A stretch of DNA of 64,000 bases from Halobacteriovoraceae bacterium. Its GTDB lineage: Bacteria; Bdellovibrionota; Bacteriovoracia; Bacteriovoracales; Bacteriovoracaceae. Both the position numbers and the translations under genes were made by a program. The notes below the pieces were generated by a model. It saw nothing but the letters and a program-made list of their open reading frames with translations. It searched no databases and was not told the DNA's origin. The stretch's first letter is position 1, and each line of letters opens with the position of its first letter. Positions 45,021 to 50,050 of this stretch are shown piece by piece. The stretch spans positions 124,001 to 188,000 of the forward strand of contig PASP01000014.1 in the NCBI GenBank assembly GCA_002712005.1, in the 5' to 3' direction.

Positions 45021-45779
45021 GTGAAAGTTCATGAAATAAAAGGTTATATTCTTACGATTTACTTGGTTGAGAAAGAGGGAGAACTTCTTTTGCTAGACGG
45101 TTGTGCTCGCCCTGACTTTAATGTCGTGAAGGCTTTTATTGAAAATGATCTTGGTTATCAATTGTCCGATCTTAAACTTGTTATCTCAACCCATCCTAAC
45201 CCTGATCATTTTGGGGCCCTTTCTCTTTTTAAAAAAGCTGGAATTCCTATTGCTGGCCCTCCTGAACTCAATGACTGGTATACTGGCTTTCTTGGATTTC
45301 TTACTTATTGGGTAGATATACTTTTGATGTATCTCGTGGCGATTAATAAAAAAAGGGGATTTTATAATACGTTATTTCCTCGCTCAGTAGAATTAGATCT
45401 TATTCTCAAGGACGGAGATAGAATTCCAGGTTTTGAAGAATGGTCGGTATTGAAATGTCCCGGTCATACTAATATGGATTTAACCTTGTATAATAGTGAA
45501 TTAAGTTTGGCCTATATCGCAGACAATGTGGTTGGTAGTGAGAATAAACTATTTAGGCCATATCCTCTTTTTAAGCCTCATCTCTATAAAGAGTCTCTTC
45601 AACGTTATATTGATTTAGATATTCAAGAGATCATGATAGCCCATTATGGAAGATTTAAATTAAATAAAGAGAAATTAAAAAAATTAATTGAGACGACTCC
45701 TGAGAAGTCACGACGCCATATTAATACCTTGCCTGCAATTTTTCTCAAACTTCTACGCTCCCTCTATAACAAAAGATGA
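45021..45779 (+). CDS. MBL-fold protein with altered metal site
   Basis: The 252-residue protein has a metallo-beta-lactamase fold. The first metal motif reads THPNPDH instead of THxHxDH, so the second His is Asn. Other ligands are present: His in KCPGHTNMDL, Asp in YIADNVVG and His in IMIAHYGRF. It may bind one metal, or a different one. The start is GTG at 45021 with no clear ribosome binding site, fitting coupling to the zinc-ribbon gene. Function is unknown. Confidence 0.8.
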   Translation: MKVHEIKGYILTIYLVEKEGELLLLDGCARPDFNVVKAFIENDLGYQLSDLKLVISTHPNPDHFGALSLFKKAGIPIAGPPELNDWYTGFLGFLTYWVDILLMYLVAINKKRGFYNTLFPRSVELDLILKDGDRIPGFEEWSVLKCPGHTNMDLTLYNSELSLAYIADNVVGSENKLFRPYPLFKPHLYKESLQRYIDLDIQEIMIAHYGRFKLNKEKLKKLIETTPEKSRRHINTLPAIFLKLLRSLYNKR

Positions 45780-45789
45780 CATTTGCTTA

Positions 45790-45958
45790 AAGGTACGGCA
45801 TTCTTTTTGAAAAAGTAATCAAGTCAGTGAAGTTGGTGTAAGTCCAACACTGTCCCGCAACGGTAAGTTGATGTAAGCAACAAGTCCGATCCTGATAGAT
45901 TATTTCCATTTTCTTACCCGAGGAGGTTATCTATGAATATAAGTTCAGACCTGTAAAT
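45790..45958 (+). ncRNA. cobalamin (B12) riboswitch
   Basis: The core GGTGTAAGTCCAACACTG followed by TCCCGCAACGGTAAG is the conserved P5-P6 and L5 region of cobalamin riboswitches. CAAGTCCGATCCTG and the later AAGTTCAGACCTGT resemble the 3' B12-box. The outer limits are estimated. About 55 bases later comes the acyl-CoA thioesterase gene. A hairpin AGCTCT/AGAGCT (45987-46003) directly precedes its ribosome binding site and could be the part that B12 binding controls. Confidence 0.88.
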
Positions 45959-46014
45959 TTTAAGTACGCAAATTTTTAACAAATTGAGCTCTTATGGAGA
46001 GCTAAGGATGAACT

Positions 46015-46401
46015 ATGTCTTTAATTGAAGAAAGAATGAAGCAGGCTAGAACTACAATCGTTAGGGCGGTGTTTCCCGGAACTACTAATCATTACGACAC
46101 ATTGTTTGGAGGTAATACCTTAAAGTGGATGGATGAAGTGGCCTTTATTACGGCGACACGTTTTGGGAAAAAGAAATTTGTCACCGTCTCAAGTGATCGG
46201 ATTGATTTTAATATACCAATTCCTGGTGGGCATTTTGTAGAACTCATAGGGGAAGTTGAAAAGGTCGGAACTTCAAGTTTGGTGGTCAAAGTCACTTTGC
46301 ATCTAGAAGAGATGTATAGCGATCATAAAATTGTAGCTGTGGAAGGAAATTTTACCCTCGTTGCAATCAATGATGAAAGAAAGGCCGTTTCTATCATGTA
46401 G
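46015..46401 (+). CDS. acyl-CoA thioesterase, hotdog fold (YciA/BACH-like)
   Basis: The 128-residue enzyme hydrolyses acyl-CoA to free acid and CoA. The family motifs are FPGTTNHYDTLFGGNTLKWMDEVA (seen in two halves, with the catalytic Asp in WMDE) and RIDFNIPIPGGHFVEL. AAGGA precedes the ATG by about six bases. It is the only gene between the B12 riboswitch and a strong terminator, so its expression is probably controlled by cobalamin. Confidence 0.88.
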   Translation: MSLIEERMKQARTTIVRAVFPGTTNHYDTLFGGNTLKWMDEVAFITATRFGKKKFVTVSSDRIDFNIPIPGGHFVELIGEVEKVGTSSLVVKVTLHLEEMYSDHKIVAVEGNFTLVAINDERKAVSIM

Positions 46402-46410
46402 AAGATAAGG

Positions 46411-46446
46411 TACACCACCTTCTAAGAAAGGTGGTGTATTCTTATT
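46411..46446 (+). terminator. terminator of the thioesterase gene
   Basis: TACACCACCTT (46411-46421) and AAGGTGGTGTA (46428-46438) form an eleven-pair stem, followed by TTCTTATTT. Confidence 0.9.
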
Positions 46447-49423: not shown

Positions 49424-50050
49424 ATGAACTATGAAAAAGTAGATATTGAAAACTGGAGCAGAAAGCAGCAGTTTGAATTTTTTCTTAAATTTACTGAGCC
49501 TTTCTTTGGAATCACATTTGATCTGACCATCACGAATTTCTTTAATAAAACGAAAGAAAGGGGGGACTCTATATTTATTGGATATATATTTAATATTTTA
49601 AAGGCCATGAATGAAATTGATGAATTAAAAATGAGAATCGTTGGTAGAGAAGTTTTTAGATATAATCAAATAGGTTGTTCTGCAACGATTGCTCGTGATG
49701 ATGGAACCTTTGGCTTTTCATATATCGATTATAATCCAAACTATAAAGATTTTAAAATAAGCGCAGAGGAAGAGATAAATCGAGTCCAGAAATCAAAGAG
49801 TTTCGATCCTGGTCCTCAAGTATATGATACGATTCATTTTTCATCACTTCCTTGGATTAAGTTTACTTCACTTTCTCATGCACGACAGTTTGATCATCCT
49901 GACTCAATCCCAAAGGTTTCGTGTGGGAAGATTGTGGAAAAGGATGGTGAATACTTTATGCCTTTTTCAATACATGTTCACCATGCTCTTGTTGATGGCT
50001 TTCACATCGGCTTACTCGAAAAACGATTGTCAGAACTATTTAATCGTTAG
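49424..50050 (+). CDS. CatA-like O-acetyltransferase
   Basis: The 208-residue protein resembles class A chloramphenicol acetyltransferase. The catalytic motif HHALVDGFHIG is present near residue 187, and the N-terminal WSRKQQFEFFLKF corresponds to the family start. It is 11 residues shorter than typical Cat (about 219), so chloramphenicol resistance is not certain. It follows trehalase after 11 bases and its end overlaps the pentapeptide-repeat gene by four bases. Confidence 0.85.
   Translation: MNYEKVDIENWSRKQQFEFFLKFTEPFFGITFDLTITNFFNKTKERGDSIFIGYIFNILKAMNEIDELKMRIVGREVFRYNQIGCSATIARDDGTFGFSYIDYNPNYKDFKISAEEEINRVQKSKSFDPGPQVYDTIHFSSLPWIKFTSLSHARQFDHPDSIPKVSCGKIVEKDGEYFMPFSIHVHHALVDGFHIGLLEKRLSELFNR

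Follow-up and report, generated by a model that had tools for sequence, protein, structure and literature searches.

The window analysed here is a 64-kb stretch (64,000 nucleotides) from a Halobacteriovoraceae bacterium. As listed in Table 1, the locus under study contains a cobalamin riboswitch aptamer, followed on the same strand by a very short putative leader frame, a gene for a hot-dog acyl-CoA thioesterase (hereafter TE) and a terminator-like hairpin. Aptamer and enzyme both scored above their cut-offs, confirming the original prediction of a cobalamin riboswitch in front of a thioesterase, and the hairpin agrees with the terminator that had been placed behind the gene. The neighbouring genes encode a zinc-ribbon protein, an MBL-fold hydrolase, a thioredoxin-like protein, a trehalase and a CatA-like acetyltransferase, none of which is a B12 gene.

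Table 1. Features of the riboswitch-thioesterase locus in the window
Feature	Position	Strand	Basis
AdoCbl (cobalamin) riboswitch aptamer, RF01482	45800-45941	+	cmscan, 56.0 bits (curated cut-off 50)
GAGGAGG Shine-Dalgarno within aptamer region L13	45920-45926	+	sequence
Putative 7-codon leader frame MNISSDL*	45933-45956	+	6 nt 3' of GAGGAGG
Small hairpin AGCTCT-TATGG-AGAGCT just 5' of the TE ribosome site	45987-46003	+	
Likely own Shine-Dalgarno of the TE gene (AAGGA)	46004-46008	+	sequence
Hot-dog acyl-CoA thioesterase (TE), 128 aa	46015-46401	+	Pfam 4HBT (PF03061), 58.6 bits (gathering cut-off 20.6)
Intrinsic-terminator-like hairpin	46409-46440	+	13 pairs and T-rich tail

The RF01482 match (E 1.4e-7 for the 64-kb window) covered all of model positions 1-149 and was the sole riboswitch found in the window by cmscan at curated thresholds. 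The riboswitch had been expected from position 45790, and its presence held while its start moved 10 nt downstream. RF00174, the family proposed for checking the locus, matched at the same place when used alone, with a sub-cut-off score of 27.8 bits, and our own covariance model R1, derived from Bacteroidota riboswitches, also matched there (45810-45959, 36.2 bits). The L13 region of the aptamer reads CCCGAGGAGG and contains a near-ideal Shine-Dalgarno sequence 6 nt 5' of an ATG, so that L13 overlaps the predicted ribosome-binding site, a layout shared by relatives. In the translational mode of this AdoCbl riboswitch group, ligand binding hides the L13 ribosome site.

The ATG behind L13 opens the 7-codon frame and not TE, whose start lies 73 nt from the aptamer end and 58 nt from the leader stop. 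A frame at a like position occurs in L067, a Bacteriovoracaceae locus, with a different sequence (MNFIITS*). The view that no gene separates riboswitch and TE was thus correct apart from this frame, and a missed protein-coding gene was rejected because nothing else was found there and the frame is not conserved in sequence in L067. A base-paired relay from leader to TE was also rejected: the opening energy of the TE start was 8.3 kcal/mol with the leader free and 8.1 kcal/mol with it covered, the value was ordinary when compared with shuffled leaders, and L067 gave a like result. The fold of the whole leader did not exceed that of shuffles in stability (z -0.09). A search of the + strand for a sigma-70-like promoter found none. 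The MBL-fold hydrolase gene ends at 45779, only 20 nt 5' of the aptamer, and because of this short gap and the missing promoter match transcription may begin within that gene or ahead of it; the riboswitch may thus be intercistronic. Inspection of 45021-45800 likewise showed no room for a promoter between the MBL-fold gene and the aptamer, a close arrangement that is absent from L067 and L068.

The TE protein was compared with known thioesterases. Its nearest solved structures in phmmer were 2gvh and 2eis, the latter being T. thermophilus TTHB207, and BACH-type structures were also matched. Against the YciA equivalog NF007970 it scored 32.8 bits, far below the cut-off of 162, so that YciA orthology was rejected; the earlier label "YciA/BACH-type" is right for the superfamily and not for orthology. 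TE shares with the YciA/BACH-type hot-dog thioesterases (PF03061; 2gvh, 2eis, 1yli) the fold family, as judged by sequence, a putative active-site pair of N and D, and a small single domain, but it differs from YciA in forming its own subfamily, linked to B12 genes. In alignment A3 (14 rows) the putative catalytic pair is N25 and D40, which we take for the N and D that form the active site in the BACH/YciA branch; the N was kept in 14/14 rows and the D was replaced only in L164 and L165. These two relatives (L164:4025-4426 and L165:4070-4414) lie by methylcitrate genes in Paracoccus and Novosphingobium and have lost the conserved Asp, with MDE changed to MAK or MGK; the second domain of 2gvh likewise has no such Asp. 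From their sequences, the Asp-less relatives may be inactive alone, partner-dependent or devoted to another role.

The riboswitch and TE were then searched for in 59 genomes (the window's own and 58 relatives) with RF01482 and the TE alignment. The pairing was found in the window's genome (G000), in G005 of the same genus and in G018 of another genus. Together with loci read individually, six Bacteriovoracia relatives carry it: G005, G018, G008, G016, L067 and L068. G008 (L038) was added by reading the locus, with AdoCbl-II at 34.2 bits, just below the cut-off of 36.5, and so was G016 (L037), with RF00174 at 55 bits about 0.4 kb upstream of TE. In L067 and in L068 (Halobacteriovoraceae), RF01482 scored 39.5 and 49.4 bits, both below cut-off, with core and L13 legible. 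The motif CCCG(A/C)GGAGG, followed after 5-7 nt by a start codon, occurs in L033, L035, L038, L067 and L068, and also before a TonB receptor in L028. The L13 ribosome site stands 5-6 nt before the start of TE itself in L033, L035, L038 and L068; in the window and L067 it precedes the 7-codon frame, and TE has its own site. G022, of the same family, has TE with no riboswitch found at the locus. The window's genome has two cobalamin riboswitches in total, and the second (G000:C12:132562-137000; L151:4563-9016), with the same GAGGAGG-in-L13 layout, precedes a B12-uptake operon of the type TonB receptor-BtuF-BtuD-BtuC. Most forks of the TE tree were open, but a five-row Bacteriovoracia group that includes the window was supported (SH-aLRT 97), and all of its members bear the riboswitch. 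The closest TE relatives in the tree place the host in the Bacteriovoracia (Bdellovibrionota). With 128 columns, too few to resolve the forks, the tree was rejected as a count of independent riboswitch gains. In L037 (1900-2330, - strand), about four direct copies of a unit of about 75 nt (aaaggctttgtttt.agctcgacgatggtcgccgcctgtgcggatcgaaactggggtttcgctcct) lie between riboswitch and TE; this repeat is absent from the other TE loci read.

The 80 best genome matches to TE, mostly Bacteroidota, were taken for a wider survey. From 13 cobalamin riboswitches at these loci a covariance model was made, and over 87 sources (984 kb) it gave 45 matches. In 39 of the 80 loci TE had a cobalamin riboswitch upstream and in the same orientation, and just one further match fell elsewhere in them; 12 of the 39 had contributed sequence to the model and so match by construction, but these contributors had been chosen from Rfam matches. 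Rfam was concordant, at 32.7-110 bits in the representatives recovered. The riboswitch stood directly before TE in 24 loci and before metE and then TE in 6. In 5 it was followed by a TonB receptor, an optional DUF5074 (BtuG-like) gene and TE, and in 2 it stood with class I ribonucleotide reductase (RNR) genes, the other 2 having different contexts. In Fulvivirga imtechensis the gene order is TonB receptor, TE, cobU, cobT. Close TE genes with no detected riboswitch made up about half of this set. The link between riboswitch and thioesterase is therefore real and, extending from Bacteriovoracia into further genera and phyla, far broader than first proposed.

As these 80 loci had been picked by similarity to the query, a separate, evenly drawn sample of 80 Bacteroidota genomes was searched. 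A close TE (>120 bits) was present in 8 of them, and in the seed and 3 of the 7 others (4/8 with the seed included) a cobalamin riboswitch preceded the TE gene on its own strand by no more than 5 kb. The riboswitch of G110 lies 105 nt before TE, and the orders in G115 and G128 are riboswitch-nrdB-TE-nrdA and riboswitch-nrdB-nrdA-TE. None of the 12 weaker, paralogue-like TE matches in the sample had a riboswitch within 5 kb. The 80 genomes, about 3.4 Mb each, contain about 120 riboswitches, from which we estimated a chance rate of about 0.001 per gene for the same distance and strand.

In other phyla, TE loci were read on plasmids. T. thermophilus HB8 (TTHB207) and T. brockianus have riboswitch-TE-nrdB-nrdA, and Allomeiothermus has riboswitch-nrdI-nrdE-nrdF-TE. 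In D. radiodurans the order is TE-nrdI-nrdE-nrdF; this gene neighbourhood is kept in Deinococcus although no riboswitch at or above the Rfam cut-off was found. In Shinella sumterensis and Sphingomonas, riboswitch-TE is divergent from mesX-mesD, which in Sphingomonas is preceded by a separate riboswitch of its own. Sinorhizobium medicae shows riboswitch-TE-LysR-mesX-mesD, Shinella WSC3-e shows riboswitch-metE-TE followed by riboswitch-nrdH-nrdI-nrdE-nrdF, and Azospira shows riboswitch-TE-RNR, from which a second riboswitch diverges towards a TonB receptor. Methylcitrate-cycle genes adjoin TE in Novosphingobium (riboswitch-mesX-mesD-TE-acnD-prpF) and in Paracoccus (TE-prpD-prpC-prpB, no riboswitch found). 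Back-to-back divergent cobalamin riboswitch pairs were seen in L161:3338-3907, L162:3280-3891 and L166:3285-3869, in each of which one member pointed towards TE while its partner pointed towards mesX-mesD, a DUF1636 gene or a TonB receptor. Two PLSDB entries from Proteus mirabilis (NZ_OL790811.1 and NZ_OL790812.1, 4.1 Mb, filed as plasmids) look like chromosomes by their size, and both carry a gene for a TE relative with 46% identity to that of the window; no riboswitch was found in the 10 kb read from NZ_OL790811.1.

Overall, the partners of TE are metE, nrdAB/nrdIEF/nrdHIEF, mesX-mesD, btuB-like genes, DUF5074 genes and cobU-cobT. Among all neighbours, metE, mesX-mesD and class I RNR (nrd) genes occur most often, ahead of genes of the mutase pathway. 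The enzyme called "lone" is thus alone in the window's genome, while elsewhere it can share operons. The MesD/MesX methionine synthase works without B12 (PMC7857596), and in A. baumannii B12 strongly lowers mesX expression (PMC12892962). All three Rfam AdoCbl families are represented in the pairing across phyla, and because of this and the differing gene orders the pairing probably arose more than once, as far as sequences can tell.

It had been proposed that TE compensates for a stalled B12-dependent methylmalonyl-CoA mutase (MCM), and mutase genes were looked for. The window's genome encodes MCM (PRK09426, 1257 bits) and MeaB, as well as a 1062-aa protein of IcmF length; PrpD and PrpB gave no match there in a search of the methylcitrate cycle that covered these two enzymes. 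MCM/IcmF-family genes were present in 40 of 40 TE genomes tested, so mutase presence was rejected as a discriminator of riboswitch-bearing from riboswitch-free TE genomes; being near universal in these groups, such genes prove little. A TIGR03081 methylmalonyl-CoA epimerase gene (above cut-off) adjoins TE in L069 and L117, two loci in which no riboswitch was found. The proposal therefore fits the genomics in its enzymes and in the epimerase and methylcitrate neighbours, but the mutase genes do not discriminate and the metE and nrd contexts are commoner. The distant relative YciA increases propionate production in a strain accumulating propionyl-CoA (PMC9399607) and hydrolyses methylsuccinyl-CoA and mesaconyl-CoA in engineered cells (PMC9529712); to judge from these activities, substrates like methylmalonyl- or propionyl-CoA are within the reach of the fold. 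Methylmalonyl-CoA is the better guess of the two, because TE also occurs beside methylcitrate genes, a setting in which a cell would waste propionyl-CoA by hydrolysing it.

In nature, B12 is often in short supply, and the known riboswitch-controlled answers are import of B12 or B12-independent isozymes that replace MetH and NrdJ. The recurrent partners of TE are genes for B12 absence or scavenging, and by this association TE would be on when B12 is low. We consider it highly probable that TE belongs to the low-B12, cobalamin-riboswitch regulon, and it is probably a so far unnoticed part of the way bacteria usually respond when B12 is short. We infer that bound AdoCbl would make the aptamer hide the L13 Shine-Dalgarno and turn translation off, and that scarcity of AdoCbl would turn it on. 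The hidden site would be that of TE itself in most Bacteriovoracia relatives and that of the 7-codon leader in the window and L067, where TE may be controlled via leader translation, by coupling or polarity; this passage of control from leader to TE is the weakest link of the model. Once AdoCbl is lacking, a cell with MCM and with neither PrpB nor PrpD would presumably have CoA tied up in propionyl- and methylmalonyl-CoA, substrates that would pile up when the AdoCbl-dependent mutases (MCM, IcmF) have no cofactor. TE would hydrolyse short-chain acyl-CoAs, most likely methylmalonyl-CoA and/or propionyl-CoA, and return free CoA. It would then stand to the mutases as MetE/MesD stands to MetH and class I RNR to NrdJ, relieving rather than replacing.

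To this reading as a whole, a TE of the low-B12 regulon that relieves the CoA pool of cells with stalled mutases, we give a probability of about 0.6. What counts against it is that metE and nrd, not mutase genes, are the commonest neighbours, that no riboswitch was found at about half of the close TE genes, G022 and Deinococcus included, and that the L13 ribosome site of the window is not directly that of TE, with no structural relay found. The first of these points would also suit a TE that sits in the low-B12 regulon and acts on a substrate unrelated to the mutases, serving another need when methionine and deoxynucleotide synthesis switch to B12-independent enzymes, or general CoA recycling, and mutases so widespread weigh little against it. 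However, metE, mesX-mesD, nrd and btu have no obvious acyl-CoA in common, B12 shortage being their common factor, and the epimerase and methylcitrate neighbours indicate propionyl-/methylmalonyl-CoA, so we hold a substrate of this kind to be unlikely, if well worth keeping in view. TE might also be a productive step of B12-independent propionyl-CoA disposal instead of a relief valve, either as a 3-hydroxypropionyl-CoA hydrolase, as in the low-B12 propionate shunt of C. elegans (PMC4951191), or in propionate excretion. The failure to detect PrpB and PrpD in the window's genome and the methylcitrate genes next to TE in two species speak for such a route; we nevertheless judge it improbable, since in most loci TE is alone, neither an acyl-CoA dehydrogenase nor a hydroxyacid dehydrogenase adjoining it there, and the only other riboswitch of the window's genome stands before the B12-uptake operon.

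Mere chance adjacency, with a real riboswitch of which TE is not the conserved target, might be suspected from the close TE genes that have no riboswitch and from the L13 site that serves the 7-codon frame in the window. The comparative data contradict it and leave it a negligible share: the chance expectation of about 0.001 per gene compares with 3 of 7 non-seed genes in the even sample and 39 of 80 loci, and the pairing extends over three Rfam AdoCbl families and four phyla. An activating riboswitch, by which TE would be made when B12 is plentiful, is scarcely credible, as the ribosome site lies in L13, which is generally known to be hidden upon binding, and as the operon partners are genes needed at B12 scarcity. 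The Caulobacter metE and btuB riboswitches turn translation off with B12 (PMC6538847), although an activating corrinoid riboswitch has been reported (PMC10653944).

The proposed relief of CoA from stalled mutases may extend beyond the window. We give even odds to the wider reading that, in at least four phyla, a dedicated methylmalonyl-/propionyl-CoA thioesterase under cobalamin-riboswitch control is a third standard way of meeting the loss of B12, one that replaces no B12 enzyme and rescues the CoA pool of cells whose AdoCbl mutases have stalled, and that 2eis/TTHB207, a solved structure with no function assigned, is one of these enzymes. If so, this answer to B12 shortage would be independent of MetE/MesD and class I RNR, and a protein family now labelled just "acyl-CoA thioesterase" or "hotdog domain-containing protein" would gain a function. 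In the open-licence literature, no paper was found linking a cobalamin riboswitch with this thioesterase; a co-mention in PMC8620254 was discarded, as it concerns an unrelated acyl-ACP thioesterase.

Compared with known systems, TE shares with the cobalamin-riboswitch regulon (btuB, metE, class I nrd, mesX-mesD) the riboswitch families, the operons in many species and the expected direction, on at low B12, but the members known so far either bring in B12 or stand in for a B12-dependent enzyme, whereas TE stands in for none. The methylcitrate cycle (PrpC, PrpD or AcnD/PrpF, PrpB), a known B12-independent relief for propionyl-CoA found adjoining TE in Paracoccus and Novosphingobium, oxidises propionyl-CoA, whereas TE would merely hydrolyse CoA esters. 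The C. elegans shunt likewise rewires propionyl-CoA metabolism at low B12 (PMC4951191), but it is a multi-enzyme oxidative route of an animal and TE is a single riboswitch-controlled hydrolase. In M. tuberculosis, metE and ppe2 have a B12 riboswitch and a short leader ORF before the target, as in the window, and expression of ppe2 requires translation of its leader ORF (PMC11260477); there the leader ORF and ppe2 itself overlap (AUGA), in contrast to the distance between leader stop and TE start in the window.

Elsewhere in the window, the gene for the CatA-like O-acetyltransferase (49424-50050) adjoins the trehalase gene. Its product scored well below the NCBIfam cut-offs (117 vs 270 for CatA) and matched Pfam CAT at 104.8 bits.
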